From Rhodoligotrophos sp. CJ14 (GTDB lineage Bacteria; Pseudomonadota; Alphaproteobacteria; Rhizobiales; Im1), in contig NZ_CP133319.1 in assembly GCF_038811545.1 (NCBI RefSeq), positions 2,075,516 to 2,139,515 on the forward strand: DNA of 64,000 bases, in the 5' to 3' direction. The position numbers and the translations under genes are program-made. Shown here piece by piece: positions 9,097 through 37,263 of this stretch; the stretch's first letter is position 1, and every line of letters starts with the position of its first letter. The notes under the pieces are model-generated. The model saw only the letters and a list, made by a program, of their open reading frames with translations, made no database searches and had not been told where the DNA came from.

Positions 9097-11130
9097 ATGA
9101 CGGAACACCAGGTTTCGGCGAGACCAGCCGCGAACCGGATCGGCGTCGAGATCGGAGGCACCTTTACCGATCTGGTCTGGGCTGGCCCCGATGGCCGTCT
9201 ACACACCGGCAAGACCCCGTCCACTCCCCAGGCGATCCACGAGGCCGTGCTGCGCGTGATCAGCGATGCGGGCATGCCGCTCGCCTCGGTCTCGCAAGTG
9301 ACCCACGGCTCGACGGTCGCGACCAACGCGCTCCTCACCCGCCGTGGCGCGCGCACCGGTCTCGTGACCACCGCCGGCTTTCGCGATGTCATCATTCTCG
9401 GACGTGCCGACCGCGATCACGACATCTACGACATGCGCTATCGCCGGCCTCTGCCGCCCATCCGGCGCAGCATGATCAGGGAAGTCCATGAGCGGATCGG
9501 CCCCGATGGCCAGGTGCTCGTCCCGCTCGATCTCGACGCCGCATGGAAAGAGGTCGCGCAGCTCCTTGACCAGGGTATCGAAGGCATCGCCATATGCCTT
9601 CTGCACGCCTATCGCAATCCTGACCACGAGCGCGCGCTCGCCGAGATGATCCGCAGCCGAGCGCCCCATGTGACCGTCTCCGCCAGTCACGAGGTCTCGC
9701 CGGAGTTCCGGGAGTATGAGCGCAGCATGACCTCGGTCGTGAACGCCTTCGTCGGACCGGTCGTCGAGCGCTATATCGCCCGCCTCGAGGCCGGGCTGCG
9801 GGAGGGCGGCTATGGCGGCGTCCTGCAGATCATGCAGTCGAACGGCGGCAGCATGCCGGCCTCCTCTGCCGGCGCCAATGCCGTGCGTATGCTGCTCTCG
9901 GGTCCCGCCGCGGGGGTGCGCGCAGCGATCTGGTTCGCCCGGCGCAACGACATCACCGACGTGATCACGCTCGACATGGGCGGCACCAGCACCGATGTCG
10001 CCATCGCGCCCGGCCTCAATCCCAGCATCGTGCCCGAGCTCAAGGTCGATGGCCTGCCGGTGCGAACCCCGTCCGTGGACATGGCGACCATCGGTGCCGG
10101 GGGTGGTAGCATCGCCTTCATCGACAAGGGCGGCTTTCTCACGGTCGGACCCGAAAGCGCTGGCGCTGATCCAGGCCCGGCCTGCTACGGCCGCGGTGGT
10201 GAGCGGCCGACCGTGACCGATGCGCAAGTGGTCGCCGGTCTGCTGCGGCCCGAGCGCTTTCTCGGTGGGCGCATGAAGCTTCTGCCCGAGCGGGCAACCG
10301 CGGCACTCGGCGCGCTATCCTTGCCCGGCGGGGTCGAAGTGACGGCTGATGCGGTGCTGCGCCTCGTCAACAGCAACATGGCTGATGCGGTCCGGCTTGT
10401 GTCGACGCGGCGGGGGATTGACCCGCGCGACTTCACCATCGTCGCCTATGGCGGCGGTGGGCCGCTGCATGCAGCCATGGTGGCCGAGGAATTGGGCGTG
10501 CGCCAGGTGCTCGTACCTTGGTCTCCGGGCCTGGCCAGTGCCTTCGGGCTGCTGATCGCGGACACGGTGATCGATGTCGCCCAGAGCGGTCTGCACCGCC
10601 TGGCGGATGAAACCCTGAATGGCGCCCGCATCGAGCAGCTGAACCAGCGCGCAGCCGAAGCCGCCAGCCTCAATGGCCTCGAACCGGGCAGCTACCGCGT
10701 CGCCATCGGCATGGACATGCGCTATCTCGGCCAGGCATTCGAGCTCACCATATGGACCGATGGCGCCCCGGCAGCCGCAGCAGAGCTGCGCGCCCTCTTC
10801 GAAACTGAGCACCGCGGCCGCTATGGCTATGCGCGCCCGAAGCTCGACGTGGAAGTCGTGGGCTACCGCATTCGTGTGGTGAGGGAAGCAGAGGGCCATG
10901 TGACGACCCCGCTGCCGGAGGGCGAAGCGCTCAAGCCGGCCATCCTGGACGCCACCATCGGTGGAGCGCGCGTCTCGGCCCAATTCATCGCCCGCGCGAT
11001 GCTTCAACCGGGCACCCGGCTCGATGGCCCCGCCATCATCGAAGAGGCCACGTCTACCACTGTGATACCGCCCGGCTGGCAGCTGGAATGCCTGCCGACC
11101 GGAGACTTGTTGCTGAGGGACACGCGATGA
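9097..11130 (+). CDS. Hydantoinase/oxoprolinase family protein, subunit A (HyuA-like)
   Basis: 677 residues. The N-terminal nucleotide-binding part has GVEIGGTFTDLVW and THGSTVATNALL, and the ATPase core has TLDMGGTSTDVAI, followed by the C-terminal hydantoinase A domain. With subunit B these proteins open 5-membered cyclic amides (N-methylhydantoin, 5-oxoproline, hydantoins) at the expense of ATP, or, in acetone carboxylase, carboxylate a ketone. The next gene encodes subunit B and overlaps by ATGA. Location inside an amide-import operon favours a cyclic amide substrate over ketone carboxylation; the third acetone carboxylase subunit is absent. Confidence 0.92.
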   Translation: MTEHQVSARPAANRIGVEIGGTFTDLVWAGPDGRLHTGKTPSTPQAIHEAVLRVISDAGMPLASVSQVTHGSTVATNALLTRRGARTGLVTTAGFRDVIILGRADRDHDIYDMRYRRPLPPIRRSMIREVHERIGPDGQVLVPLDLDAAWKEVAQLLDQGIEGIAICLLHAYRNPDHERALAEMIRSRAPHVTVSASHEVSPEFREYERSMTSVVNAFVGPVVERYIARLEAGLREGGYGGVLQIMQSNGGSMPASSAGANAVRMLLSGPAAGVRAAIWFARRNDITDVITLDMGGTSTDVAIAPGLNPSIVPELKVDGLPVRTPSVDMATIGAGGGSIAFIDKGGFLTVGPESAGADPGPACYGRGGERPTVTDAQVVAGLLRPERFLGGRMKLLPERATAALGALSLPGGVEVTADAVLRLVNSNMADAVRLVSTRRGIDPRDFTIVAYGGGGPLHAAMVAEELGVRQVLVPWSPGLASAFGLLIADTVIDVAQSGLHRLADETLNGARIEQLNQRAAEAASLNGLEPGSYRVAIGMDMRYLGQAFELTIWTDGAPAAAAELRALFETEHRGRYGYARPKLDVEVVGYRIRVVREAEGHVTTPLPEGEALKPAILDATIGGARVSAQFIARAMLQPGTRLDGPAIIEEATSTTVIPPGWQLECLPTGDLLLRDTR

Positions 11131-22342: not shown

Positions 22343-23104
22343 ATGCATAGTTTCTCCGTGTCCGCCTTTTCAGGCTTTCCCATGGTCGGGCGCGGCGATG
22401 ATCTTGCCGAGATCATTATCGCCGCGGCAGAAAGGAACGGATATGCGCTTCAATCCGGCGACGTCATTGTCCTTGCTCAGAAGATCGTGTCCAAGGCGCA
22501 AGGACGCACCGTCGACCTAGCCTCCGTGACACCCTCGCCCCGCGCCCGACAATTGGCTGAGGAATGCGATAAGGATCCGCGTCTGGTTGAGGTGATCCTG
22601 CGCGAATCGACCGAGATCGTCAAAACGGCGCGCGGGCTCATCATCGCCGCCCATCGCTGCGGGGCGGTACTGGCCAATGCCGGCATCGACCGTTCGAACG
22701 TGACCGGCGATGACGAGACCGTGCTGCTCCTGCCGGATGATCCCGATGGTGCCTGCGCCGAGCTCCGTGCACGCTTTGCTGAACGGCTCGGCGTGGATGT
22801 GGCCGTGATCATCGCAGACAGCCTGGGACGACCGTGGCGGATGGGCACGACAGGCACCGCGATCGGCGCCAGTGGCCTGCCCTCGCTCCTTGATTTGCGT
22901 GGCAGGCCGGACCTGTTCGGCCGCACGCTGATGGTTAGTGAGGAAGCCATTGCCGATGAGCTCGCAGCGGCCGCATCCCTCGTGCAGGGCCAGGGCGCGG
23001 AAGGCCGGCCGGTGGCCGTCATCCGCGGTCAATTCCCTTGGCGTGGCGCCGACATTCCCGCTGCGGCGCTCGTTCGCCCGAAAGATCAAGATCTGTTTCG
23101 CTAG
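22343..23104 (+). CDS. cofE: Coenzyme F420-0:L-glutamate ligase
   Basis: 253 residues, the length of stand-alone CofE. It adds gamma-linked glutamates to F420-0 using GTP. Family landmarks are SGDVIVLAQKIVSKAQG near residue 40, a TGDDETVLLLPDDPD stretch, and ADSLGRPWRMGTTGTAIGAS, which contains the metal/GTP-binding region. In actinobacterial FbiB this domain is fused to a C-terminal flavin reductase that saturates dehydro-F420; that domain is missing here. The gene is nine bases upstream of cofD and divergent from the DJ-1 gene, so it probably leads a two-gene transcript. Confidence 0.93.
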   Translation: MHSFSVSAFSGFPMVGRGDDLAEIIIAAAERNGYALQSGDVIVLAQKIVSKAQGRTVDLASVTPSPRARQLAEECDKDPRLVEVILRESTEIVKTARGLIIAAHRCGAVLANAGIDRSNVTGDDETVLLLPDDPDGACAELRARFAERLGVDVAVIIADSLGRPWRMGTTGTAIGASGLPSLLDLRGRPDLFGRTLMVSEEAIADELAAAASLVQGQGAEGRPVAVIRGQFPWRGADIPAAALVRPKDQDLFR

Positions 23105-23113
23105 GAGCCAGTC

Positions 23114-24052
23114 ATGCCAAAGGTCATTGCCCTGTCCGGCGGGGTGGGCGGCAGCAAGCTCGTTGAGGGCCTTGCGCGCGCGTGCCGGCCGGAGGACCTG
23201 TTGGTCATCGCCAATACAGGCGACGATTTCATCCATCTCGGCCTGCACATTTCCCCCGACATCGACACGGTCATTTATACCTGCACCGGACGCAGCAATC
23301 TTGAACAAGGCTGGGGACAGGCTCACGAGACCTGGTCGTTCATGGACATGCTGCGCACGCTTGGCGGCCCGGACTGGTTCCAGCTCGGCGACCGCGATCT
23401 TGCCATGCATGTCTGGCGCACCTATCGGCTGTCGCAAGGGGCGTCGCTGACCGCTGTGACGCAAGAGCTCGCTCAACGCTGCGCACTGCCGTTCGCGCTT
23501 CTACCCATGTCCGATGATCCCGTGCGGACCATGGTCGATACGGCCGAAGGCGTTCTGCCGATGCAGAACTATTTCGTGGAGAAGCGCTGCGGACCGGCGG
23601 TCACCGGTCTTACCTACCAGGGTGCTGAAACGGCCCGACCGAACCCGGCGCTTTTGGCAGCCCTGGAAGACCCCGCCCTCGAGGCGATTGTCATCTGCCC
23701 GTCGAACCCGTTCCTCAGCATCGATCCGATCCTCGCTCTGCCGGGCTTGCGTCAGGCGCTGCGCAATGCACCGGCACCCGTCATTGCGGTCACTCCCATC
23801 ATCGGCGGCCAAGCGGTAAAAGGTCCGACGGCCAAGATGATGGCTGAGCTGGGCCTGCACGTGGATGCGGTGGCGGTTGCGCGCCACTATGCCGGGCTGA
23901 TTGATATCTTCGTGCTTGATCAGCAGGATGCTGCCCTGGCCGATGCCATCAGAGCAAGCGATATTGCGCCCGTTCTCGCCCAGACCCTGATGAAGGGCCT
24001 GTCCGACAAGCGCTCCCTGGCCGAGGCCGTCTTGAACGCAGCAATACGCTAG
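23114..24052 (+). CDS. cofD: 2-phospho-L-lactate transferase (F420-0 synthesis)
   Basis: 312 residues. CofD transfers the phospholactyl (or phosphoenolpyruvyl or phosphoglyceryl) group from a guanylyl donor made by CofC to the deazaflavin FO. Recognisable parts are the N-terminal ALSGGVGGSKLVEGLAR nucleotide-fold loop, NTGDDFIHLGLHISPDIDTV, the GDRDLAMHVWRT segment, and VICPSNPFLSIDPIL in the second half. It directly follows cofE, after a GGAG ribosome-binding site. Its last four bases overlap the 3' end of the convergent LysR gene. Confidence 0.95.
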   Translation: MPKVIALSGGVGGSKLVEGLARACRPEDLLVIANTGDDFIHLGLHISPDIDTVIYTCTGRSNLEQGWGQAHETWSFMDMLRTLGGPDWFQLGDRDLAMHVWRTYRLSQGASLTAVTQELAQRCALPFALLPMSDDPVRTMVDTAEGVLPMQNYFVEKRCGPAVTGLTYQGAETARPNPALLAALEDPALEAIVICPSNPFLSIDPILALPGLRQALRNAPAPVIAVTPIIGGQAVKGPTAKMMAELGLHVDAVAVARHYAGLIDIFVLDQQDAALADAIRASDIAPVLAQTLMKGLSDKRSLAEAVLNAAIR

Positions 24053-24945
24053 AACTTCTGAAGGAGCCACTCCTTGAACAGGCGCGTATGCGCCGTGGCC
24101 TTGTCCTGCCGCTCCACGAAGAAGAACGACTTCGGGATCTTCACGCATTCATCCAGGGCTTTCACCAGCCGGCCGGATGCGATGAGATCGTCTGTCAGAA
24201 GCGTCCAGCCCAGAGCGACGCCCTGCCCTTCGCAGGCCGCCTGAATGACGAGGGGATGGCTGTTGAACTTGAGCATGCGTGAGGCGCGCGACCCATCGAT
24301 GCCCAGCCGGGCGAACCATTCGCCCCAGTCGAGCCGGCCCGGCCGGTCGTCCTCCATGCTGAGCAAAACCTGATGCAGCAGTGAGTCCAGATCCTTCAGT
24401 TCTGGATGCGCTTCGATGTAAGCGGGCGCACAGACCGGGAAGACCGTGCTTTCCTTGAGCAAAGTGGGCGTGAATCCCGCCCAGGCGCCATCGCCGAAGG
24501 CAACGCCGATATCCACCTGATCGGCGACACTGTCGAAGCCGCGATCCGTGGCGATGAGATGAACCTCGAGGTCGGGATGGGCCGCGCGAAAGGCTGGTAG
24601 CCGTGGAATCAGCCAGAAGGTTGCCACCGCGAAGGTAACCCCAACCCGAATGACCGGCGGGCGGCTGGCGGCGCGCATATTCTCCGCAACCGTCGCGATC
24701 TGGCTAAGCGCCGTGCTGACCGTGCGAAACAGTTCCTGGCCCTGTTCGGTGAGATCAAGCCCGCGGTGCAATCGCACGAACAGTGTGACCCCGAGCTCCT
24801 GCTCAAGCATGCGCACCTGCTGGCTCACTGCCGCCTGTGTGACATTGAGCTCCTGCGATGCCAGTGTGAAGCTCTGCAGCCGTGCCGCCGCCTCAAACAT
24901 GCGCAGTCGTGTCAGCCGGGGCAGATGCTTGAGATAATTCACCAT
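24049..24945 (-). CDS. LysR family transcriptional regulator (GcvA-like)
   Basis: 298 residues from the ATG at 24945, which is preceded by AGGGG at a normal distance; an ATG at 24966 has no ribosome-binding site. The N-terminal helix-turn-helix (LTLASQELNVTQAAVSQQVR) is followed by a periplasmic-binding-type effector domain with GVALGWTLLTDDL, as in GcvA. It is divergent from fgd and convergent with cofD, splitting the F420 genes into two transcripts. It is the natural candidate for regulating fgd-cofC-fbiC. Confidence 0.9.
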   Translation of the reverse strand: MVNYLKHLPRLTRLRMFEAAARLQSFTLASQELNVTQAAVSQQVRMLEQELGVTLFVRLHRGLDLTEQGQELFRTVSTALSQIATVAENMRAASRPPVIRVGVTFAVATFWLIPRLPAFRAAHPDLEVHLIATDRGFDSVADQVDIGVAFGDGAWAGFTPTLLKESTVFPVCAPAYIEAHPELKDLDSLLHQVLLSMEDDRPGRLDWGEWFARLGIDGSRASRMLKFNSHPLVIQAACEGQGVALGWTLLTDDLIASGRLVKALDECVKIPKSFFFVERQDKATAHTRLFKEWLLQKF

Positions 24946-25252
24946 TGCCGCGCCCCTGCTGGCCATGGGCTTGAGGGGGTCTCGTCCGGTCTCCCGCGGC
25001 GCTCGACAGCTCGTCTCGATGGGGCGTACAAAGTCATAGGCCTGAAGATTTGTTCCCCGGCGGGCGGTCTGTCAACTCACCTGAGGGAGGCATGCCTGAG
25101 CTTGATGAAACCGGAGCTTGGCCAAGCCCCCATAAAAATCTTTCGTTGAGAGCGAACGGCTGGGTGGTAAAGTCTGCAAACACATCACAAATCATGACGA
25201 AGACTGATGTATCGGTGAGTTCTTTATCGATATTGTCTGGTCTTGCGGATGC
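24946..25252. promoter_or_regulatory. Divergent intergenic region between LysR and fgd
   Basis: About 300 bases with no credible gene. The half nearest fgd is relatively AT-rich. An inverted repeat TATCG/CGATA separated by 13 bases lies at 25210-25232, 20 bases before the fgd ATG, and has the general form of a LysR-type site. No confident -35/-10 pair is seen. Confidence 0.3.
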
Positions 25253-26272
25253 ATGGAGAGACTTGCTTTGCTAAAGATCGGCTACAAAGCATCCGCTGAA
25301 CAGTTCAGCCCGAGTGATCTGCTCAGGTTTTCGGAATACGCGGAATCCCTCGGCTTCGATTCTGTCTTCATCAGCGATCATTTCCAGCCGTGGCGGCACA
25401 CCGATGGCCATGCCCCTTCCGCCCTCGCCTGGCTTGGCGCCCTCGGCGGCCGCACCCAGCGTATCATCATGGGCACCAGCGTGCTCACGCCCACCTTCCG
25501 CTATCACCCCTCCATCGTCGCGCAGACCTTCGGCACCCTCGGCCAGATGTTTCCAGGCCGGGTGATCCTCGGTGTGGGAACGGGCGAATCGCTGAACGAA
25601 GTGCCGGCCACCGGCATGGCCTGGCCTGAGCCCAAGGAGCGCTTTGCGCGCTTGCGGGAAGCATTGACCCTGATCCGCAAACTCTGGACGGAGGAACGCG
25701 TCTCCTTCTCCGGCGAATACTACAAGACCGAGAACGCCACCATCTATGACCGCCCCAGCGAGCCCCTGCCCATCTATATCGCCGGCGCCGGGCCGATGAT
25801 CACCAAATATGCGGGCCGCACCGCCGATGGCTTCATCTGCACCAGCGGCAAGGGCTGGGATCTCTATCGCGAAACCTTGCTGCCCAATCTCGCGAGCGGC
25901 ATCGAAGCTGCGGGACGGCCGTCCGAATCGGTTGACCGCATGATCGAGATGAAGGTCTCCTTCGATACGGATGCCAAGCGGGCGCTGGAAGATACCCGTC
26001 ATTGGGCGGCGCTGGCGCTTTCTCCGGAAGAGAAGATGTCGGTAGAAGATCCCCTGGAGATGGAAAAGCTTGCCGATGCGCTCCCCGCGGAGCGGGCCGC
26101 CAAGCGCTGGATCGTGTCCAGCGATCCCGACGAGCAGGTCGAGCGTATCAAGCCTTACATAGAGCTCGGCTTCCGGCATCTCGTATTCCACGCGCCGGGC
26201 CCCGACCAGATGCGCTTTCTGAAACTCTTTTCCGAGCAGGTCGTGCCGCGTCTCCGCAAGGCCTTTGGGTAA
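25253..26272 (+). CDS. fgd: F420-dependent glucose-6-phosphate dehydrogenase
   Basis: 339 residues, alignable end to end from memory with mycobacterial FGD1. FGD oxidises glucose 6-phosphate to 6-phosphogluconolactone and reduces F420 to F420H2. All residues assigned to catalysis in FGD1 are kept: His43, Trp47 and Glu112 (FGD1 His40, Trp44, Glu109) in SDHFQPWRH and GVGTGES. The phosphate-binding Lys200, Lys261 and Arg285 (FGD1 Lys198, Lys259, Arg283) are also present. This goes beyond generic luciferase-like family membership. The TIM-barrel protein is cytoplasmic. cofC follows after four bases. The ATG at 25253 lacks a clear ribosome-binding site, and TTG at 25268 after GGAGAG is an alternative. 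Confidence 0.93.
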
Positions 26273-26276
26273 GCCC

Positions 26277-26990
26277 ATGAACGCGGACCGGGCCATATTC
26301 AGGCGGTCCCAACGCAACGGCATCTGGGCCGTGGTGCCGATCAAGGCATTGGGCCAGGCCAAGCAGCGCCTGTCCGGCCGCTATAGCGCAGAATTCAGAC
26401 GGCGCCTTGTGCTGGCCATGGCCGACGACGTCCTGGCCGCCTTGGCGGCGGTGAAGACCCTCGCCGGCATCATCATTGTCACGCGAGATGCTGAGGCTGC
26501 GGCCCTGGCTCGGCGCCGCGGCGCCCATCTCCTCGAGACCGAAGCAGATCGCGGCCATACCCGGGCTGTGATGGCAGCGGCCAGCATTCTCGCCGCGGAA
26601 GGGGCCGAAGGCATGCTGGTGCTGCCGGCTGATGTGCCCCTGGTCACACCTGACGAGATTGGCGAGATAGTAGCGGCGCGGCCGCCTTCGCCCTCCTTTA
26701 CGATCGTGCCGGCCCATGACGGCAATGGCAGCAACGCAATTCTGTCCATGCCGCCGAATGCTGTGCCGCTGGCCTTTGGCGACAATAGCTTCGCCGAACA
26801 TTGCCGGCGGGCGCGGGAACGTGGCATCGATCCGCGCATCATGATCAGCCCCGGATTGGCCCTTGATATAGACCATCCCGTCGATCTCGACCGATTTATG
26901 GCGCGCGGGGGCGATACCGCCACGCACGGGGTTGTCCGCGCAGCCATGGCCGGTCAATATCAAGACCTTACGACGCGGAGCGCCGTCTGA
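26277..26990 (+). CDS. cofC: 2-phospho-L-lactate (or analogous) guanylyltransferase
   Basis: 237 residues. CofC/FbiD activates 2-phospholactate, phosphoenolpyruvate or 3-phosphoglycerate with GTP to give the donor used by CofD. The nucleotidyltransferase fold begins WAVVPIKALGQAKQRLSGR, with LPADVPLVTPDEI as metal-binding region and AHDGNGSNAILSMPP as the family signature. Which 3-carbon acid is used cannot be told by eye. It starts four bases after fgd and its stop overlaps the start of the FO synthase gene (TGATG), so the three are coupled. Confidence 0.92.
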   Translation: MNADRAIFRRSQRNGIWAVVPIKALGQAKQRLSGRYSAEFRRRLVLAMADDVLAALAAVKTLAGIIIVTRDAEAAALARRRGAHLLETEADRGHTRAVMAAASILAAEGAEGMLVLPADVPLVTPDEIGEIVAARPPSPSFTIVPAHDGNGSNAILSMPPNAVPLAFGDNSFAEHCRRARERGIDPRIMISPGLALDIDHPVDLDRFMARGGDTATHGVVRAAMAGQYQDLTTRSAV

Positions 26991-29458
26991 TGAGCGAACT
27001 CGCCCGGCTTGATCGCATCCTCGCGGCCGGCGATCTGCCTGCCGCCGAGGACGCCCTCAGCCTTGCGGATATCGCGGATGTCGAGAGCCTGATGAGACGC
27101 GCGGCCTGCCTGCGCGATGAAGGCCACCGGGATCGCGTCAGCTATTCCCGCAAAGTCTTCATTCCGCTGACCCAGCTGTGCCGTGATACCTGCCATTATT
27201 GCACTTTTGCCAAGGCACCGCGCCGGATCGACGCGCCCTATTTGCTGCCCGAGGCCGTCCTGGCCATTGCCCGGGCCGGGGCACGCGCCGGCTGCCACGA
27301 GGCCCTGTTCACCCTCGGCGACAAGCCGGAGCTGCGCTACCGGGTTGCGCGCGAGGCGCTCAACGCCCTGGGCCACGAGACCACCCTCTCCTATCTCGCG
27401 GAAATGGCGCGCCTAGTTGCCAAGGAGACCGGCCTTCTGCCGCATCTCAATCCCGGCGTGCTCTCACCAGCGGAGATTGCCAGCCTGCGGAAAGTGTCCG
27501 TATCCCAAGGCATTATGCTCGAAACGAGCGCGCAGAGACTGAGCGAGCGCGGCGGACCTCATTTCGGCTCGCCCGACAAGCACCCTGCAATCCGGCTGGC
27601 CACCATAGAAGCGGCCGGCAAGGCGCAAGTACCCTTCACCTCGGGCATTCTGATTGGCATCGGCGAGACGAGGCGGGAGCGGATCGAGGCACTTCTTGCA
27701 TTGCGCGAGCTGCACGAGCGCTACGGACACTTGCAGGAAATCATCATCCAGAATTTCCGCGCCAAGCCCGGCACGCGCATGGCCGCAGCGCCCGAGCCCT
27801 CTTTCGCAGACCATTTGTGGACCATCGCCGTTGCGCGCATCCTGTTCGGCCCGGCGATGAACATCCAGGCCCCGCCCAATCTCAGCGCCGGCGCGCTCGA
27901 GCAGCAGATCGCCGCCGGCATCAATGACTGGGGTGGTGTATCACCGGTCACGCCGGACCATGTGAACCCCGAAGCGCCATGGCCGGAAATCACCAGGCTT
28001 GGCGAGGCAACCGCCGCTGCCGGCAAGGTGCTCACCGAGCGCCTCGCCATCTATCCCGATTATGTGCGCAATGCCACGCGCTGGCTCGACCCGGTGATGG
28101 CAACCCCCACCCTGCGCCAGGCGGATGCGGAGGGCTTTGCCCGCGACTGTGCCTGGACGCCGGGCACGCCCGTCGAGATGCGCCACCACACGCCATCGAT
28201 CAACATCCGCCTGACCACCTCATCGCGAAACGCGCTCAGCGATATCCTGGCCAAGGCCAGCGCGGGCCAAGATCTGACCGAAGCGGAGGTCGTCGCCCTG
28301 TTTGCCACCCGCGGGGCCGATGCAGAGCAGGTATATGTCGCGGCCGACGACCTGCGGCGCAGTCAGGCCGGCGATACCGTGCGCTACGTGGTCAATCGCA
28401 ACATCAACTACACCAATGTCTGCTACTATCGCTGCCAGTTCTGCGCCTTTTCCAAGGGCAAGCTCAGCGAGAACCTGCGCGGCCGCCCCTATGATCTCGA
28501 TCATGCCGAGATCTGCCGGCGCAGCCGTGAGGCCTGGGATCGCGGCGCCACTGAAGTGTGCCTCCAGGGCGGCATTCACCCCGACTATACCGGCGCGACC
28601 TATCTCGGCATTGTGCATGCCCTGAAGGCCGCGACACCCGACATCCACATCCATGCCTTTTCACCCCTGGAGATCTGGCAGGGCGCCGCAACCCTCGGCA
28701 TCTCCGTGCGCGACTTTCTCTCCGAGCTGAAGGCGGCAGGCCTCGGCACCCTCCCCGGCACCGCGGCCGAGATCCTCGACGATGAAGTGCGACGCATCAT
28801 CTGCCCGGACAAGCTCACCACTGACCAATGGCTGGAAGTGGTTGAGACCGCCCATGCTGTCGGGCTCAGCACCACGGCCACGATCATGTTCGGTCATGTG
28901 GACGAGCCCCGCCACTGGGCGCGTCATCTCATCCGCATCCGGAACCTGCAGAAGCGCACCGGCGGCTTCACAGAATTCGTGCCGCTGCCCTTCGTACCCA
29001 TGGAAACGCCGATCTATCTGAAAGGCCTCGCGCGCTCCGGCCCAACCTTGCGCGAGGCGCTCCTGATGCATGCTGTCGCCAGGCTGGCCCTTCATCCGCA
29101 TGTTGAGAACATCCAGACCTCCTGGGTGAAAATGGGCGAGGAAGGTGCCAAGCTCTGTCTGCAAGCGGGGGCAAACGATCTCGGCGGCACACTGATGAAC
29201 GAGACCATCTCCAAGGCGGCCGGCGCCGCCCATGGCCAGGAGATGGCGCCTGACCGCATGGAGCGGCTCATCACCTCGCTTGGCCGCATACCCCTGCAAC
29301 GCAGCACGCTTTACGGGCCAGTATCTTCGGAACGGCGAGACGCCTCCTTCGCTGCCGCCCCGCTCACCGAGGCGATCGCCATACCGGCGGCGCGCAAGTT
29401 CCACCGCGAGCGCGGCACCGCCTCGTCGGTACCCGCCACATCCACCGTTTCTGATTGA
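26990..29458 (+). CDS. fbiC: FO synthase, fused CofG-CofH (FbiC)
   Basis: 822 residues, two radical-SAM halves in one protein as in actinobacterial FbiC. The enzyme joins tyrosine to 5-amino-6-ribitylamino-uracil to form the deazaflavin FO. The N-terminal CofG half carries Cys64, Cys68 and Cys71 (CRDTCHYC), and the C-terminal CofH half carries Cys478, Cys482 and Cys485 (CYYRCQFC), each binding a 4Fe-4S cluster and S-adenosylmethionine. Most archaea and cyanobacteria have two separate genes. It starts in the stop codon of cofC. This commits the organism to making its own F420. Confidence 0.96.
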   Translation: MSELARLDRILAAGDLPAAEDALSLADIADVESLMRRAACLRDEGHRDRVSYSRKVFIPLTQLCRDTCHYCTFAKAPRRIDAPYLLPEAVLAIARAGARAGCHEALFTLGDKPELRYRVAREALNALGHETTLSYLAEMARLVAKETGLLPHLNPGVLSPAEIASLRKVSVSQGIMLETSAQRLSERGGPHFGSPDKHPAIRLATIEAAGKAQVPFTSGILIGIGETRRERIEALLALRELHERYGHLQEIIIQNFRAKPGTRMAAAPEPSFADHLWTIAVARILFGPAMNIQAPPNLSAGALEQQIAAGINDWGGVSPVTPDHVNPEAPWPEITRLGEATAAAGKVLTERLAIYPDYVRNATRWLDPVMATPTLRQADAEGFARDCAWTPGTPVEMRHHTPSINIRLTTSSRNALSDILAKASAGQDLTEAEVVALFATRGADAEQVYVAADDLRRSQAGDTVRYVVNRNINYTNVCYYRCQFCAFSKGKLSENLRGRPYDLDHAEICRRSREAWDRGATEVCLQGGIHPDYTGATYLGIVHALKAATPDIHIHAFSPLEIWQGAATLGISVRDFLSELKAAGLGTLPGTAAEILDDEVRRIICPDKLTTDQWLEVVETAHAVGLSTTATIMFGHVDEPRHWARHLIRIRNLQKRTGGFTEFVPLPFVPMETPIYLKGLARSGPTLREALLMHAVARLALHPHVENIQTSWVKMGEEGAKLCLQAGANDLGGTLMNETISKAAGAAHGQEMAPDRMERLITSLGRIPLQRSTLYGPVSSERRDASFAAAPLTEAIAIPAARKFHRERGTASSVPATSTVSD

Positions 29459-29472
29459 GGAGTTGAGACGTC

Positions 29473-30213
29473 ATGATCGTGCTGGCCGCCTATTACAAGG
29501 GCACCGTGGACCCGGCCAATCGGGAGACCTTCGACACCTACGTCAAGGAGGTGCACCTGCCCTTGGTGGCCAAATGGCCGGAGCTGCGCGGCCTGCGTCT
29601 GCTCAAGAACAATCACGAGCCTTATCTCGGCGAGGCACCGCAATATTACCACTGCTTCCAGCTGTTCTATGACGATAAGGAAGCCCTTGCCCGCTCGCTT
29701 GCCTCGGAAGAGCGTGAGGAAACCAAGCGCATCAGCATCGCCGACCGCCCGCGCTTCCGCGAGCTTTTCAAGGGCGATGTATTGCACATGGTGTTCGACA
29801 TCACCTCCTTCCCCTGCAAGGACCGTGACCCTGAGCCCAAGCAGGATCTGACCGGGACCTTCGCCCGCTGCGCCCTCTACATGGGCACGGTTCCGGAACA
29901 GCGCGAACGCTTCGAGACCTATGTGCGAGACGTCCACCTGCCCATGGTTGCCGATTGGCCGAGGCTTAAAGACCTGAAGCTCTTGAAGAGCGATGGCACG
30001 CCCTTCCTGACCGAGCAGCCGAAATATTTCCACACCTTCGAGCTCTATTTCGACAACCAGGCCGATATGGACCTGTGCATGGCCTCGGAGGAGCGCAAGG
30101 AGTGTCGGCGGATCTCGGCTGAAGATGTCGACAGCTTCAAGGGCCTGTTTCAGGGCGAGGTTCATCACGTGAATTTTCAGATCACGGAGATTCCGTTACG
30201 GCCAAAGGCTTGA
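29473..30213 (+). CDS. Tandem EthD-like (dimeric alpha-beta barrel) protein
   Basis: 246 residues made of two clearly repeated halves. The first has YYKGTVDPANRETFDTYVKE, HLPLVAKWPELRGLRLLK and ASEEREETKRIS. The second has LYMGTVPEQRERFETYVRD, HLPMVADWPRLKDLKLLK and ASEERKECRRIS. Each half is an EthD/ferredoxin-like domain that usually dimerises, so this protein probably forms an internal pseudo-dimer. EthD-type proteins accompany oxidative degradation systems, and the fold is also used by monooxygenases and small isomerases. It follows the FO synthase gene by 14 bases and precedes a terminator-like hairpin. No established link to F420 is known to me; a role in the F420-linked pathway is inference. 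Confidence 0.82.
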   Translation: MIVLAAYYKGTVDPANRETFDTYVKEVHLPLVAKWPELRGLRLLKNNHEPYLGEAPQYYHCFQLFYDDKEALARSLASEEREETKRISIADRPRFRELFKGDVLHMVFDITSFPCKDRDPEPKQDLTGTFARCALYMGTVPEQRERFETYVRDVHLPMVADWPRLKDLKLLKSDGTPFLTEQPKYFHTFELYFDNQADMDLCMASEERKECRRISAEDVDSFKGLFQGEVHHVNFQITEIPLRPKA

Positions 30214-30245: not shown

Positions 30246-30283
30246 GGGGCCTTTGGCATAAGCTCGCCTTAGGCAAAGGCCCC
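30246..30283 (+). terminator. Intrinsic terminator-like hairpin after the F420 operon
   Basis: A perfect ten-base stem GGGGCCTTTG (30246-30255) and CAAAGGCCCC (30274-30283) encloses an 18-base loop, followed by TGATTATCTTTTGTTG. The T-richness is moderate. It lies 33 bases after the EthD-like gene and separates the F420 operon from the next importer operon, whose start is 180 bases downstream. Confidence 0.55.
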
Positions 30284-30462
30284 TGATTATCTTTTGTTGT
30301 TGCCCCGAGATCGCGGCCATATCATCGAGCAAAAGGGGAGAACAGCCGCGAGATTCTGAGGGAGCAGACTTCGTGCTTCTGTCAGAAATGCTTTTTGAGA
30401 CCTGACTGTCTCTCGGCCCAGAACTAACCAAGCCCAATAATACTAATGCAGGAGGTGGGGTG

Positions 30463-32007
30463 ATGTTTAGCAGGCGAAGCGTCTTATCATTGTCAGCCGC
30501 GTCTACCGCGGCATTGCTGCTGCCGAAAAACCTCTATGCGCAAGGCTCTGCGCCTGCCGTGGGCAAGCCGGGTGGCTCGCTGACCGCAGCCATCTTCGCT
30601 GACCCGCTCTCCCTTGACCCCCACCTCACCGGTAATCTGCAAGGGCGCGCGGCGACCCGCGCCATTCACGACACCCTGTTCACCATCCAAGACGGCCGCC
30701 TTGCGCCGGGCCTGGTGGAATCATGGGAGCAGCCGGACGAGAAGACCTTTGTCCTGAAGCTGCGCCAGGGCATCAAGTTTCACGACGGCACGCCGTTCGA
30801 TGCCGAGGCGGTCAAGTTCAACATAGACCGCATTCGCGATACGAGCATCGGCTCCATTCGTGGCGGTGAGATCACCGCACTCGATACAATCGAAGCGGTC
30901 GATGCCCATACCGTGAAAATGGTGACGAAATACCCGTTTGCCGCATTCCTCTTCCCGTTCACCGATGTCACCGGCTGTATCGGCTCTCCCGCTGCCTTCA
31001 AGAAGCACGGGATCGATTACGGGCTGCACCCGAGCGGCACTGGTCCCTTCAAGCTCGCGGAATACAGCAAGGACAATCGCACCGTTCTCGAGAAGAATGG
31101 CGGCTATTGGCAGAAGGGTAAGCCCTATCTTGACCAGGTCATCCTCCGGCCAGTGCCCACCGACAGCACCCGCCTTTCGGAATTGCGCGCCGGATCCGTC
31201 CAGATCGCTGAGGCCCTGCCGCTGCAGGACATTCAGCGCCTGCGCGCGGCCAATGAGTTCGTGGTGTCTGAAAAGCCGGGCTTTCGCTGGGAATATTTCG
31301 GCTTCAACTTGCGTGACCAATATCCCGGCAAGTCAAAGGCGTTCCGCCAGGCCTTCCAATGGGCCATTGATCGTCAGGCCCTCCATCAGGTCGCCTATTT
31401 CGGCACGGGTGAGATCGGTTATGACGGCATTCTGCCGGGCAGCCCCTTCTATGATCCCAATTACAAACCCTTTAAGCGGGATGTGGATAAGGCGAAGAGG
31501 CTGATCGAGGAATCGGGTCTCGATACCCCAATCCTGATCGGCGCTCCCCTTCAGCCCGACCCGGTGAAGCAGCGTGCCACCCAGATCTTCCAGGCCAATG
31601 CCGCCGAGATCGGGGTGAAGGTCAATATCGAGCAGATCGACAGCGCCGGTTATCGCAACATGCTGCGTGACGGCATGATGCCCATGGATGCGCAGGGATG
31701 GTGGGGCTATCGGCCTGATCCCGATCAATATCTCGCCATTTTGCTCGGGTCCGAGGGCTCTTACGCGAAATATCACGCCTATTCGAACCCTGAGATGGAC
31801 AAGCTCATCCAGGCGGAGCGCGCCGGACGCACCGAGGAGGAGCGCCGCATCGCCTTCCGGAAGATCTCGGAGCTGATGAACGAGGACGCGGTCTATGTGC
31901 CTTGGCATTACAGCTCCGACTTCAAGGGCCTGGACCCAAAGGTGAAGGGGTTCCAGCACGCTGCCGACGGCATCATCAATTTCGCCGAGCTCTGGATCGA
32001 GGCCTGA
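30463..32007 (+). CDS. ABC transporter substrate-binding protein, family 5 (oligopeptide/DppA type)
   Basis: 514 residues from the ATG at 30463, with GGAGG upstream; a GTG three bases earlier is possible. A Tat-like leader MFSRRSVLSLSAASTAALLL ends near LYAQG. The mature protein is a family 5 extracellular solute-binding protein with SLDPHLTGN, the WEQPDEKTFVLKLRQGIKFH segment and GTGPFKLAEYS. It collects a peptide, nickel complex or other bulky solute for the DppBCDF-like importer at 33375-37263. Two catabolic genes lie between it and the permeases, so the ligand is probably their substrate rather than ordinary peptide. Confidence 0.93.
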   Translation: MFSRRSVLSLSAASTAALLLPKNLYAQGSAPAVGKPGGSLTAAIFADPLSLDPHLTGNLQGRAATRAIHDTLFTIQDGRLAPGLVESWEQPDEKTFVLKLRQGIKFHDGTPFDAEAVKFNIDRIRDTSIGSIRGGEITALDTIEAVDAHTVKMVTKYPFAAFLFPFTDVTGCIGSPAAFKKHGIDYGLHPSGTGPFKLAEYSKDNRTVLEKNGGYWQKGKPYLDQVILRPVPTDSTRLSELRAGSVQIAEALPLQDIQRLRAANEFVVSEKPGFRWEYFGFNLRDQYPGKSKAFRQAFQWAIDRQALHQVAYFGTGEIGYDGILPGSPFYDPNYKPFKRDVDKAKRLIEESGLDTPILIGAPLQPDPVKQRATQIFQANAAEIGVKVNIEQIDSAGYRNMLRDGMMPMDAQGWWGYRPDPDQYLAILLGSEGSYAKYHAYSNPEMDKLIQAERAGRTEEERRIAFRKISELMNEDAVYVPWHYSSDFKGLDPKVKGFQHAADGIINFAELWIEA

Positions 32008-32105: not shown

Positions 32106-32303
32106 ATGCCAGTCGTGCGGGTTTGTTTCTATGAAGGCCGTTCACCAGAGCAGAAGCGCAAGATCGCGGAGGCGATAACGACGGCGCTTGTCGATATTGC
32201 CGGCTCCAAGCGCGATGCGGTGAACGTGATGTTCGACAACTTCACCCGCGAAGATTGGGTGATCGGTGGCGCCCCGGAATTTTCCGACAAATCCAAAGGC
32301 TAA
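32106..32303 (+). CDS. 4-oxalocrotonate tautomerase family protein
   Basis: 65 residues from the ATG at 32106, which follows AAGGA. This start places proline second, so after Met removal Pro1 is the catalytic base as in 4-oxalocrotonate tautomerase; an upstream in-frame ATG at 32064 would bury it. EGRSPEQKRKIAEAITTAL supplies the arginine (Arg11 equivalent) and helix of the beta-alpha-beta fold, and the length is that of hexameric family members. These enzymes move double bonds between enol and keto forms of unsaturated acids or dehalogenate them. It sits between the importer binding protein and a flavin/F420 reductase, suggesting a shared catabolic route. Confidence 0.85.
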   Translation: MPVVRVCFYEGRSPEQKRKIAEAITTALVDIAGSKRDAVNVMFDNFTREDWVIGGAPEFSDKSKG

Positions 32304-32329
32304 AGACAAAAGCCGGACAGGAGATCAAG

Positions 32330-33370
32330 GTGAAGCCCACACTCGGTGTTCTGCTGTTTTCTGAAGGCCCCATCAGCGAGCTGGTTGACATCGCCCGCGA
32401 GGCCGAAACGCTCGGTTATGAGTACCTGTGGTACACGGATGTGCGCTTCGCCCGGGAGTGCTATGTGGGGCTCACCGCGGTTGCCCTGAACACGAAATCC
32501 CTGAAGATCGGGACAGGTGTCACCGACCCCTATTCCCGTCATCCCGCCATCACCGCGGCCGCCATGGCGACGCTCGATGAGGTGAGCAATGGCCGGGCGG
32601 TGCTCGGCCTCGGCACCGGTGGCGCCGGCTTCAAGGAGCTTGGGCTCGAGCGGGTGCTGCCGATCGCGGCCATGCGTGAGACCGTCACCATGATCCACGC
32701 CCTGCAGCGTGGCGAGAAGGTGACCTCGCAAGGCAAGGTCGTCTCGATCGATGGTGGCCGGTTCAACTTCAAGCCGGTGCGCGATCATATCCCCGTCTAT
32801 TTCGCCACCCACGGACCTCAGATGACGCGCCTGGCCGGCGAAATCGCCGATGGCGTGCTGATCGCCAATACGCTCAATCCCAAAGCCTTTGATTTCTACG
32901 TCGGAAAGCTGAACGAGGGTCTTGCCAAGGCGCAACGCTCGCCGGACAGTCTGGATATCGGCTTGCGCGTGGAGGCCTGTATCGATGACGACGATGAGAA
33001 GGCTCTGGAGGTGATGCGCAGGCGTGTCGCATCGCGGCTGATCAGTCAATATCCGCACTGGGACTATCTCGACGAGCTCGGGATCACTCTGCCCGAAGCC
33101 TTCGTCGAGCTTGCCAAGATGGAAGGCGGCCACGACGTCAGCCGGGCCGCGAGCCTCATGCCCCTGGAAGTGGTGGAATCCATGGTGCTCGCCGGCAATC
33201 CCAAGCGGGTCAGCGAGCAGCTCGCCAAGGCGCTTCATCCGAGCGTCACCCAGGTGACCTTGCGCCCCCATGCGGTCCCGGGCGGGAAACAGGCGTCCGT
33301 GGTGCGCGCCTTCGCGGAGCAGGTCTTCCCCGAAGCCTTGCGCAGGAGAGCAGAAAGCGTAGCGGCCTGA
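32330..33370 (+). CDS. Mer-like luciferase-family oxidoreductase, probably F420-dependent
   Basis: 346 residues from a GTG at 32330 with AGGAG eight bases upstream. The protein is a luciferase-like TIM barrel. The region LKIGTGVTDPYSRHPAITAA followed by TLDEVSNGRAVLGLGTGG closely resembles methylenetetrahydromethanopterin reductase (Mer), which binds F420 rather than FMN. F420 and FMN enzymes cannot be separated with certainty by eye, but the Mer-type signature and the F420 genes 2-10 kb upstream favour F420. It is embedded in an importer operon, next to a tautomerase, so it probably reduces an imported unsaturated compound or its product. Confidence 0.82.
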   Translation: MKPTLGVLLFSEGPISELVDIAREAETLGYEYLWYTDVRFARECYVGLTAVALNTKSLKIGTGVTDPYSRHPAITAAAMATLDEVSNGRAVLGLGTGGAGFKELGLERVLPIAAMRETVTMIHALQRGEKVTSQGKVVSIDGGRFNFKPVRDHIPVYFATHGPQMTRLAGEIADGVLIANTLNPKAFDFYVGKLNEGLAKAQRSPDSLDIGLRVEACIDDDDEKALEVMRRRVASRLISQYPHWDYLDELGITLPEAFVELAKMEGGHDVSRAASLMPLEVVESMVLAGNPKRVSEQLAKALHPSVTQVTLRPHAVPGGKQASVVRAFAEQVFPEALRRRAESVAA

Positions 33371-33374
33371 CGAG

Positions 33375-34325
33375 ATGGTCAAGTTTATCGCCCAGAGATT
33401 TGCCGCGACACTTCCCGTTCTGGTGCTGACCTCGGTCATCATCTTCGTCTTGATGCGGATCCTTCCGGGTGATCCCGTGCTCATGCTCATCGGCGAGCAT
33501 TCTGAGGTGAGCGAGGAGACCATCACCACACTGCGCAAGCAGTACGGGCTCGACCAGCCTCTGCCGGTGCAATATCTGATCTGGGTGAAGAACGCGGTCT
33601 CCGGTGACCTCGGCCGGTCGATCCACGGCCGGCAACCGGTCTGGGACGTGGTGGCGCCGCGTATTCTACCGACGGCCCAGATTGGCCTCACCGCCTGGAT
33701 CTTCGCCGTTATCGTGGCGGTGCCTTTGGGCGCCCTCAGCGCCGCCCGAATGAACACCTGGCTTGATTGGCTGGGAACTTTGCTCGCACTGATCGGTGCG
33801 GCAATGCCCTACTTTCTCCTGGGCGGCCTTTTGATCTACGGCGTCGCCCTCAAGACCGGCTGGCTGCCCATCTCCGGCTATGTCTCCCCGGCCGTGGACA
33901 TTGGCCGCAGCATACGCTCCACCATCTTGCCGGCCGCGACCCTGAGCCTGGCGCTGATCGCCGTGATCACCCGCCAGGCGCGCTCCAGCTTTGCGGATGT
34001 CCTGAACCATCCCTTCATCCGTACCGCCCGGGCCAAGGGCCTCTCGGAGCGGAACGTCATCATCCGCCATGCCTTGCGTAATGCCATGGTGCCCATCGTC
34101 ACCATATTGGGCCTGCAGCTTGGCACCTTGTTCAGCGGCGCGGTGGTGACGGAGATGGTCTTTGCCATTCCCGGCGTGGGCCGCCTGCTCGTCGACTCCA
34201 TTCTCAGCCGCGACTATCCAGTCGTGCAGGCAGTGGTGCTGTTTATAACTTTCTGCGTGGTCATGGCGACCATGGCGGTAGATATCGCCTATGGCCTGCT
34301 CGACCCCAGGTTGCGGCCGAGGTAG
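33375..34325 (+). CDS. ABC transporter permease, DppB/OppB type
   Basis: 316 residues, six predicted membrane helices. The first helix begins VKFIAQRFAATLPVLVLTSV, followed by RILPGDPVLMLIGEHSEVS, which is the periplasmic DppB motif. The docking loop is RTARAKGLSERNVIIRHALRNA near residue 225. It forms the membrane pore with the next gene product. It starts four bases after the Mer-like gene, within the same operon. Confidence 0.93.
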   Translation: MVKFIAQRFAATLPVLVLTSVIIFVLMRILPGDPVLMLIGEHSEVSEETITTLRKQYGLDQPLPVQYLIWVKNAVSGDLGRSIHGRQPVWDVVAPRILPTAQIGLTAWIFAVIVAVPLGALSAARMNTWLDWLGTLLALIGAAMPYFLLGGLLIYGVALKTGWLPISGYVSPAVDIGRSIRSTILPAATLSLALIAVITRQARSSFADVLNHPFIRTARAKGLSERNVIIRHALRNAMVPIVTILGLQLGTLFSGAVVTEMVFAIPGVGRLLVDSILSRDYPVVQAVVLFITFCVVMATMAVDIAYGLLDPRLRPR

Positions 34326-34331
34326 CGGACC

Positions 34332-35225
34332 ATGGCGAGCGACGGCCCCAGCATCGTGAGCCACACATCGCCTTACCGGGCCGGGCGAAGTCTCGCCGTT
34401 CGAGGCGCCCTCACCCGCAATCTCATGCTGATCGCTGGCCTGGTTCTCGTTGCCGTCCTGGCCGCAGGCGCAATTTTCGCGCCTTTGCTCACCCAGTACA
34501 CGCCCGAGTCCATGGATTACATGGCCATGCTCCAGGGACCAAGCGCCGCCCATCTCTTCGGAACGGACGAGCTGGGCCGCGATATCTTCAGCCGCTCCCT
34601 CTATGGTGCGCGCCTGTCGATGAGCGTGGGCCTGAGCGCCGTTCTGCTGTCGGTCGCCATGGGCGTGCCGCTCGGCCTGATTGCAGGCTATGTCGGCGGC
34701 ATCACCGATGCGATCTTCATGCGCATCCTCGACAGCCTGATCGCCCTGCCGCCGCTGGTGCTCGCGCTCACCATTTCCGCGGTGCTCGGCACCGGTCTCG
34801 TGAATGCCACCATCGCTATCGCCATCGTATCGGTGCCCACATTCGCCCGCCTGATCCGCGGACAGGTGCTGTCGCTCAAGCATCTCGAATTCATCCAGGC
34901 CGCCGAGTCGATCGGCGTCTCATCACCGCTGATCATCCTGCGCCATATCCTGCCCAACGCGATCAACCCGGTCATCGTCCAGTCATCGCTGGCGGTGGGC
35001 TTCGCCATCATCCTCGAATCCAGCCTGAGCTTCATCGGCCTTGGCGCTCAGCCGCCGGCGTCGACCTGGGGCTCCATGGTGCAGGTGGGCTTTCAATATC
35101 TCGAGCTCGCCCCCTGGTATCCGCTCATCCCGGCCACGATGATCTTTTTCGCCGTGCTCGGCTTCAACATGCTCGGTGAAGGTCTGCGTCAGATGCTCGA
35201 TCCCGCCTCGCGGAGCCGGCCATGA
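34332..35225 (+). CDS. ABC transporter permease, DppC/OppC type
   Basis: 297 residues. A cytoplasmic N-terminal arm of about 33 residues leads into the first helix, followed by [20 protein letters not shown], the hallmark of DppC proteins, and the docking loop [20 protein letters not shown]. The C-terminal [19 protein letters not shown] is also conserved. It pairs with the DppB-like permease and overlaps the following ATPase gene by ATGA. Confidence 0.93.
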
Positions 35226-36280
35226 GCAGCGCGCAGCTTTACCAAAGTGCTGCCAGCGCGCCGGCACCCCATCCGGCGCAGGCACAGGCCGTGCTCGAGG
35301 TGGAGAACCTTACGACCAAGATTCGCACCCGCAGCGGCGAGCTTGGCGTGGTGAACGGCGTGTCATTCCATGTGAATGGTGCGGAGACCTTGGGCGTCGT
35401 CGGCGAATCCGGCTGTGGCAAGAGCATGACCGCGCTTTCGATCCTCAGGCTTCTGCCGCCGGCGGCGAGGATCGCCGACGGGCATATCCGCTTTGCCGGC
35501 CGTGATCTGGTGAGCCTCGAACCCGAGGAGATGCGCGCCATTCGTGGCAAAGACATCTCCATGATTTTCCAGGAGCCGATGACCTCGCTGAACCCGATGA
35601 TGACCATCGGGAGACAGATCGCCGAGGTCATCACCCTGCATGAAGGGCTCAGCCGGCGGGACGCAATGGCCAAGGCGGTCGAAATGCTGCGCCTGGTCCG
35701 CATCCCGGAGCCGGAACAGCGGGTGGACGAATTCCCGTTCCAGATTTCCGGCGGCATGCGGCAGCGGGTGATGATCGCCATCGCGCTGGCCTGCAATCCG
35801 AAGATCCTGCTGGCGGACGAGCCGACCACCGCGCTCGATGTCACCATCCAGGCTCAGATCATGGACCTGATGACCGATCTGCAGGAGCGCCTGCAAACCG
35901 CAATCGTCCTGATCACCCACGATCTCGGACTGGTGGCGGAGAATGCCGACCGGGTCATGGTGATGTATGCCGGCCAGGCCGTCGAGGAGGCCGACGTTGC
36001 GCAGCTCTTCGAGTGCCCCCATCACCCCTACACCAGAGGTCTGCTGGGCTCCGTTCCCCGGCTTGGATCATCCACCCTTTCTGGCGGCCGCAAGCGCCTG
36101 GTCGAGATCGAAGGCAACGTGCCCGCCCTCAACCAGCTGCCGGCCGGTTGTTCCTTCGCGCCGCGCTGCCCGTTTGCAACCCAGCAATGCCGTGAAGTCC
36201 CGCCCCCGATGGTCGAGAAGCGGCCAGGGCAATGGGCGGCTTGCTGGAACTCCGATGCAGTGATTGCGGCAGGCCCATGA
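35222..36280 (+). CDS. ABC transporter ATPase, DppD/OppD type
   Basis: 352 residues. Walker A is GESGCGKS in [19 protein letters not shown], the signature is [15 protein letters not shown], Walker B is [14 protein letters not shown], and the switch histidine is in [11 protein letters not shown]. The C-terminal oligopeptide extension has the cysteine-containing [15 protein letters not shown], which binds a 4Fe-4S cluster in some DppD proteins. It energises the importer together with the DppF-like protein encoded next. Confidence 0.93.
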
Positions 36281-37263
36281 TGGAATCGGCAATGGCTGAA
36301 GCCGCCCCTACCCTCATCGTCGAAAACCTGGTGAAGCGCTTTCCCGTGGGCGCCGGGCTCCTCTCGAAGCCCCGCGAATTCGTGCATGCGGTCGATGGGA
36401 TTTCCTTCTCGGTCGGCCGCGGGGAGACCTTGGGCCTCGTGGGCGAAAGCGGCTGTGGGAAGTCGACGGCCGGCAAGACCATCATGCGCCTTGTCCAGCC
36501 GACCTCCGGCAAGATCACCCTGCTCGGCAAGGATATAACCGGCCTCAGCCACTCGGAACTGCGACCCCTGCGCCGGCAGATGCAGATGGTGTTTCAGGAC
36601 CCCTATTCCTCGCTCGATCCGCGCATGCCGGCCGGCAAGATCGTCGCCGAGCCGCTCTCCACCCATGGTCTGGCCAAGGGGCACAGAAGCGAGGCGGTCG
36701 CCGAGCTGTTCCGGCGCGTGGGTTTGAGGCCCGATCAGATGAAGGACTACCCGCACCAATTCTCCGGCGGGCAGCGCCAGCGCATCGCCATTGCCCGCGC
36801 GCTTGCAGTCAATCCCAGCCTGATCATCGGCGATGAGCCGGTCTCGGCGCTAGATGTCTCGATTCAGGCCCAGGTCGTCAACCTGCTGATGGATCTGCAG
36901 GACGAATACAAGCTCTCCTACATTTTCATCGCGCACGATCTCGCGGTGGTCGAGCAGATCAGCCACCGCATCGCCGTCATGTATCTCGGACGTATCGTCG
37001 AAATGGCGGACACGCCCACCCTGATGAGCGCGCCTCTCCATCCCTATACCGAAGCCCTGCTTGCCGCCGTTCCGGTCCCCCAGCCGAGGAAGCGGCGCCG
37101 CCCGAGACCGATCGGCGGCGATGTTCCAAGCCCGATCCGGCGCCCTTCCGGATGCCACTTCCACACACGTTGCCCCCGTGCGGTGGACCATTGCCGCATC
37201 GAGGCCCCGGCGTTGCGCGAATTACAGCCCGGCCATTTTGTGGCGTGCCACTTAGCAGCGTAA
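36277..37263 (+). CDS. ABC transporter ATPase, DppF/OppF type
   Basis: 328 residues from the ATG at 36277, which overlaps the stop of the DppD-like gene (ATGA); the frame is open back to 36232 but that would give a 49-base overlap. Walker A is GESGCGKST, the signature is [15 protein letters not shown], Walker B is [14 protein letters not shown], and the switch histidine is in [11 protein letters not shown]. The C terminus has a cysteine-bearing oligopeptide extension ([14 protein letters not shown]). It is the last gene of the operon that began at 30463. Confidence 0.93.

Follow-up and report, generated by a model that had tools for sequence, protein, structure and literature searches.

A predicted F420-dependent sugar-6-phosphate dehydrogenase of Rhodoligotrophos and the putative LysR-controlled F420 island around it

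Why Proteobacteria make F420 is left as an open question in the relevant passages of a 2021 review (PMC8498797). These passages also describe the F420-reducing dehydrogenases and F420H2-dependent reductases of bacteria outside actinobacteria as unstudied at that time. A locus of Rhodoligotrophos sp. CJ14 raises the same question in a concrete form. It lies in the window, which is the whole 64,000-nucleotide stretch of DNA analysed here, and contains a gene which the original prediction, made from the sequence, took for an FGD (Table 1). For what purpose would such an enzyme reduce F420 in an alphaproteobacterium? The answer that we consider rather probable is that an F420-dependent hexose-6-phosphate dehydrogenase, acting mainly on glucose 6-phosphate (G6P), is the charging arm of an inducible F420 island under LysR control. 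What could be directly established is the family of the enzyme, its residues and predicted fold, the order of the genes, the presence of the pathway genes and the sharing of DNA sites. The locus provides a testable answer to the role of F420 in Proteobacteria: G6P as the donor and, in a stretch of about 15 kb, a regulator gene, two DNA sites, genes for an importer and the gene of a candidate acceptor enzyme.

Table 1. Features of the putative F420 island, in window coordinates
Feature	Position	Strand	Basis
cofE, F420-0:glutamate ligase	22343..23104	+	TIGR01916 272.2 bits (cut-off 180.65)
cofD, 2-phospho-L-lactate transferase family	23114..24052	+	TIGR01819 291.2 bits (cut-off 257.45)
LysR-family regulator, GcvA-like, divergent from FGD	24049..24966	-	Two best NCBIfam matches, below their cut-offs
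Conserved site in the LysR-FGD gap, putative LysR operator, 35 bp	25115..25149	+	Alignment of 4 gaps
FGD, F420-dependent glucose(sugar)-6-phosphate dehydrogenase	25253..26272	+	TIGR03554 over cut-off, residues, model
cofC/fbiD guanylyltransferase	26265..26990	+	TIGR03552 148.9 bits (cut-off 105)
cofGH, fused FO synthase	26990..29458	+	NF006687 1159.1 bits (cut-off 1018)
EthD-family protein, two EthD stretches	29473..30213	+	TIGR02118 (2 stretches), PF07110
Weaker copy of this site, upstream of the SBP gene	30264..30301	+	Leave-one-out matrix, rank 2
ABC solute-binding protein (SBP), peptide/nickel/opine type	30460..32007	+	Similarity
4-oxalocrotonate-tautomerase-family protein, 65 aa, Met-Pro start	32106..32303	+	PF01361, translation
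Mer-like luciferase-family protein (LLM), candidate F420H2 user	32255..33370	+	TIGR03555, PDB matches
ABC importer, two permease and two ATPase genes	33375..37263	+	PF00528, PF00005, PF08352

Residues, predicted fold and substrate range

The FGD open reading frame starts with ATG and encodes 339 amino acids. Its product scores 484.6 bits with TIGR03554, the model for F420-dependent G6P dehydrogenases (cut-off 420), and is the top match of the genome. When sequences of solved structures were searched with phmmer, Rh-FGD1 (E 2e-139) and FGD1 (E 8.9e-135) came first, with Adf, FHMAD and the Thermomicrobium enzyme far behind. Aligned by MAFFT with 3b4y, 5lxe, 9hav, 1rhc and 9fp4, the product shows 194 identities over 332 positions with FGD1 (3b4y, 58%) and 199 over 329 with Rh-FGD1 (5lxe, 60%).

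The original prediction had lined up six residues with FGD1, and this alignment of six proteins bears it out. His43, Trp47 and Glu112 fall on the columns of FGD1 His40, Trp44 and Glu109, which we take to be the catalytic residues and which are common to all six proteins. The sugar-phosphate pocket is likewise intact, as had been claimed, since Lys200, Lys261 and Arg285 occupy the columns of FGD1 Lys198, Lys259 and Arg283. Among the six residues, only Lys198 is limited to the window enzyme, FGD1 and Rh-FGD1. In Rh-FGD1 the pocket residues Lys197, Lys258 and Arg282 are described as crucial in the mutational part of the published study (PMC5352752), and their presence in the window enzyme thus supports a sugar-phosphate substrate.

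An AlphaFold2 model computed from a 41-row alignment (mean pLDDT 91.0) points in the same direction. Compared with FGD1 and its relatives, as the original prediction had suggested, it comes out nearest to FGD1 (Z 47.1, rmsd 1.7 over 329 residues), with Z 46.7 on 5lxe. Thermomicrobium Fgd (Z about 41.0), Adf (40.4) and FGD2 (39.8) give lower matches. The evidence therefore supports a sugar-6-phosphate dehydrogenase that depends on F420 and has kept its phosphate pocket. That the enzyme would act instead on a secondary alcohol or a hydroxy fatty acid, as Adf or FHMAD, is very improbable. The superfamily and fold are indeed shared, with 34-37% identity, but the score with the FHMAD model TIGR04465 is 224.7 bits for a cut-off of 470. 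Moreover, the three phosphate-binding residues of the window enzyme are replaced by Ala/Lys/Asn in Adf and by Gln/gap/Asn in FHMAD. Together with the model, this places the enzyme outside the alcohol dehydrogenase and hydroxymycolic-acid branches.

Assignment to a glucose-specific FGD, which the original prediction had drawn from the six residues, does not follow, because FSDs keep the phosphate residues as well. According to the sections of Mascotti 2018 on substrate recognition (PMC6279831), the phosphate-recognition residues of FGDs and of the broader FSDs are alike, and position 177 of FGD1 works as a switch, with Gly in FGDs, Ser in FSDs and Met in Adf. All six residues are kept in 79 of 80 homologous loci, and TIGR03554 is also passed by both Ser177 actinobacterial proteins tested, from Georgenia (L076, 496.5 bits) and Cellulomonas (L070, 471.9); for comparison, a Rhodococcus FGD reaches 730.7 bits. 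Neither the six residues nor the TIGR03554 cut-off separates a glucose-specific FGD from an FSD, a caution that concerns assignments made in this way. The window enzyme has Ala179 in the Gly177 column, which is neither Gly nor Ser, and Ala is also found in 45 of 51 Pseudomonadota loci (Gly in 3, Ser in 3). G6P is nevertheless its likely main substrate, since FGDs and FSDs both oxidise G6P in the same account (PMC6279831).

A broad enzyme of FSD type, acting on glucose, fructose and mannose 6-phosphate, has somewhat less than an even chance of being the right description. The common phosphate pocket and the TIGR03554 scores of the Ser177 proteins are in keeping with it, but the residue at position 177 is Ala and not Ser. 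The Ser177 rows, on which the comparison was based, are themselves FSD-like by that residue alone. A search of plasmid sequences with the Georgenia protein added no further Ser177 relatives to the comparison. The phylogeny also bears on this point, as described below.

Descent of the gene

The careful tree was unrooted and retained 74 of 97 rows, leaving out 18 near-duplicates and 5 rows of outgroup type. In it, the nine FGD rows from actinobacteria group as a single clade (support 100/99), and the window FGD falls outside this clade, among Pseudomonadota. A transfer from actinobacteria had been envisaged, to be looked for in such a tree. The AU test rejects an origin inside the actinobacterial FGD clade as sampled: forcing the window FGD into one clade with the nine rows lowers lnL by 76.2 (AU p 9.9e-7), a rejection that covers a place within this sampled clade and leaves room for an older exchange.

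Three Ser177 actinobacterial rows stand on the proteobacterial side, on a branch supported at 98/95. The window clade is thus on the Ser177 side of the unrooted tree, which argues for an FSD-type enzyme. Against this, two alternative groupings are not rejected, one uniting all 12 actinobacterial rows of FGD and Ser177 type (AU p 0.17) and the other joining the actinobacterial FGDs to the proteobacterial clade of 36 rows (AU p 0.15), and the Ser177 rows are the first to diverge in a quick tree with an outgroup, whose branches are very long.

FGDs labelled Actinobacteria, Planctomycetota and Acidobacteria (L065, L029, L017, L032) were also seen nested in the mainly proteobacterial clade. Such records can be read as transfer or as binning error.

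F420 genes, shared sites and the importer module

The genes follow in the order cofE, cofD, divergent LysR gene, FGD, cofC and cofGH. The listed TTG start of cofC overlaps the FGD stop, and an ATG is present at 26277. Among the 80 homologous loci, a cof gene lies within 10 kb of FGD in 48 of 51 from Pseudomonadota, 3 of 14 from Chloroflexota and none of 9 from Actinomycetota. The cof genes were recognised by their resemblance to the proteins of the window, which may leave distant ones undetected, above all in actinobacteria, and some of the loci are of limited length. In the window's class, 190 genomes were compared: FGD was found in 6 and cofG in 28, and all 6 FGD genomes have cofG (hypergeometric p 6e-6, or 4e-5 when the window's own genome is left out, values that serve as a guide since the genomes are related). 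At the threshold used, no FGD was found in the other 22 cofG genomes.

Elsewhere in the same genome, gnd, zwf, a HAD gene and pgl are consecutive, and zwf occurs once more, which gives an outlet to the lactone that FGD would release. Searches of the genome for Fno, the NADPH:F420 oxidoreductase, gave at best 23.7 bits for a cut-off of 149.8, a level at which a divergent Fno could be missed; nothing passed the cut-off for the FbiB C-terminal reductase (39.5 for 249.55 bits). Another LLM, from the broader FGD family (152.8 bits to TIGR03554), is encoded elsewhere and may also reduce F420, so that FGD need not be the sole F420 reducer. The genome also encodes an FDOR-A protein resembling F420H2-quinone reductases (L103, PF04075, 139.9 bits), possibly another F420H2 user.

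The closest match of the CofC in the window is the 3-phosphoglycerate enzyme 7p97, at 116.6 bits, whereas FbiD reaches 67.4. The CofC of the window has Gly at the Ser162 place, and the Met91 and Cys95 places are occupied by His and Val, the meaning of these places being taken from the part of PMC8764529 that describes them. Despite the proximity of 7p97, 3PG-F420 is not supported in view of these three residues, Ser being absent from the diagnostic Ser162 place. In 41 CofCs from FGD loci, this place holds Gly in 40 and Ala in 1, and His at the Met91 place recurs in 15 of the 41.

Downstream of cofGH lie the EthD gene and a module comprising SBP, tautomerase, LLM and importer genes. The SBP resembles binders of peptides, nickel, heme and opines, a resemblance that does not name its ligand. 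The LLM scores 225.6 bits with TIGR03555, under the cut-off of 348.7, and its best six PDB matches are all Mer, the F420-dependent methylene-H4MPT reductase. Given this score below the Mer cut-off, it could use FMN instead. With the TTG start that is listed, the LLM gene would overlap the tautomerase gene, and the actual start probably lies further inside. Further downstream, the segment 38403-49473 encodes another ABC importer of peptide type, together with a DAO-family oxidoreductase, a flavin oxidoreductase fusion and two proteins resembling ornithine cyclodeaminase and mandelate racemase, and is possibly a catabolic set.

Should this module be seen as a mere passenger? FGD would then be a housekeeping reductase of a general F420 pool, a reading that we find unlikely but that has observations on its side. 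As seen above, cof genes accompany FGD in nearly all Pseudomonadota loci. In comparison, SBP, tautomerase and LLM come together in only 2 of the 80 FGD loci (the flanks of some being short), so that no general association of FGD with the module emerges. Among the 190 genomes of the class, the LLM itself was found in the window's own genome and one other, and the FDOR-A protein would provide the general pool with a user. What speaks against a passenger is that the module, taken as SBP, tautomerase, LLM and two permeases, lies beside FGD in five genomes, among which the order and orientation of the genes vary, and that its promoters share a site with the FGD promoter. These genomes are three of the window's genus (the window's own, L119 and L120), Bosea sp. 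BK604 (L038) and an alphaproteobacterial MAG (L019, which L115 overlaps and with which it was counted once). A relative of the LysR gene adjoins the module in L119, L120, L019/L115 and L038. No EthD match was found in the MAG locus L019.

Two observations concern genomes with more than one FGD-family gene. L118 and L119 are two FGD loci of one species of the window's genus, the former with cofC-cofGH and the latter with the whole island. In a Burkholderiales MAG (L021), a 46% identical FGD-family fragment, cut by the locus end (1-576), precedes cofE-cofD-cofC, and a 75% identical FGD (10001-11002) precedes cofC-cofGH about 9 kb further on.

The shared site is composite. In the LysR-FGD gaps of four genomes it reads AGCTTGGCCA, a spacer of 12 or 13 bases and AATCTTTCGTTGA, with small changes; the pattern has a single match in the window and none in 100 shuffles. 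Its core, AATCTTTNRTTGA, has 8 matches (6 distinct) in 1.57 Mb from 88 sequences, where 0.07 would be expected from base composition, and all 8 are in loci with the module, before FGD, EthD-FGD or SBP. This core was derived from the same gaps, and a held-out matrix is a fairer test. The leave-one-out matrix was trained only on FGD- or EthD-side sites of other genomes. In the 64-kb window it gave 47.9 bits for the FGD promoter and 20.7 for the SBP promoter, the next match being at 9.0. In Bosea it gave 36.3 for the EthD-FGD promoter, 27.6 and 17.4 for the SBP/cofC gap in its two directions, and 8.4 for the next. The FGD and SBP promoters scored 39.2 and 11.8 in L119 (next 6.4) and 46.4 and 10.4 in L120 (next 7.7). 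The SBP site of the MAG L019 only ranked third, at 1.8 bits. With a matrix built only from the two more distant loci, L019 and L038, the two window sites still ranked first and second (21.8 and 15.1, next 10.3); the SBP site ranked fourth in L120 and lay outside the top five in L119.

The SBP-side site of the window has two mismatches to the 13-base core. Exact core matches number three in the whole genome, one of them in the FGD promoter. The other two, inside a long open reading frame (L123) and at the start of one on the opposite strand (L124), were taken as chance and discarded as regulatory sites. No core match with up to three mismatches was found in the 105 bases before cofE. The MAG genome has a paralogous locus with LysR, tautomerase and LLM genes (L117), in which the core has no match. 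The divergent LysR protein would bind both window sites.

The preferred reading, a LysR-controlled island charged by FGD, would then work as follows. FGD would transfer the hydride from C1 of G6P to F420, yielding 6-phosphogluconolactone, to be processed by Pgl and Gnd of the same genome. In the presence of some compound, LysR would jointly induce the FGD-cofC-cofGH-EthD genes and the SBP-tautomerase-LLM-ABC genes. The ABC importer would take up this inducing compound and the Mer-like LLM would reduce it with F420H2, the tautomerase and the EthD protein acting on intermediates. In this reading we infer the turnover of G6P, LysR binding, the use of F420H2 by the LLM, the substrate and the inducible logic.

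A wider proposal, put forward tentatively and with not quite an even chance in our estimation, is that alphaproteobacterial F420 is an inducible catabolic cofactor, a single LysR turning on its biosynthesis, its G6P-driven reduction and its use by a Mer-like LLM. If true, this would give F420 a defined job in Alphaproteobacteria and account for the trace amounts of F420 that have been reported in cultures of two members of this class.

Comparison with known systems

The FGD enzyme itself is of an ordinary, already known type. FGD1 and Rh-FGD1 carry the same six residues at the identities given above. FGD1 differs from the window enzyme by Gly in place of Ala at position 177, and actinobacterial FGDs of the FGD1/Rh-FGD1 type form a separate clade. 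FSD-Noca and FSD-Cryar have, by the description in the sections of PMC6279831 cited above, the same phosphate-recognition residues as the window enzyme, and Ser where it has Ala; the comparison is by description only. Adf (1rhc) has Met and Cys in the FGD1 177 and 252 columns, where the window enzyme has Ala and Leu.

The original prediction had also tied F420 reduction to the oxidative pentose phosphate pathway outside actinobacteria. Such a tie is in keeping with the pathway genes of the genome, and it is not new. Citing Ney 2017, the passages of the 2021 review on alphaproteobacterial F420 producers predict an Fgd in them (PMC8498797), which is the same gene class in the same bacterial class as here. 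They also state that these producers have Fno, whereas none passes the cut-off in the window genome. The Thermomicrobium enzyme, described as an Fgd in the portion of PMC12750041 that deals with it, is likewise a non-actinobacterial F420-dependent G6P dehydrogenase. It is more distant (9hav, Thermomicrobium roseum, 132 of 321 positions identical to the window enzyme), has Asn at the Lys198 position and is of TIGR03557 type, with 208.4 bits to TIGR03554 (L102), far under the cut-off.

Gene neighbourhoods set the window apart from the plasmid-borne genes of Rhodococcus. The window FGD lies among F420-biosynthesis genes; of four annotated Rhodococcus plasmid fgd copies, one is by gnd and pgi, one by glpX and tkt, and two by neither gene pair. 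On plasmid pRHL3 of Rhodococcus jostii (L100), fgd stands between gnd and pgi, a gene-order link to the pentose phosphate pathway, and pDK1 carries the copy by glpX and tkt.

In the open-licence literature searched, no account was found of a LysR-linked island combining F420, LLM and importer genes. What seems to be new is therefore the divergent LysR gene, the shared 35-bp site and the importer-LLM module beside FGD. The closest working analogy is the Rhodococcus picrate pathway with its F420H2-dependent LLHT, as presented in the corresponding passages of PMC8498797; it is used here as a possible model for the island, with no claim of membership.
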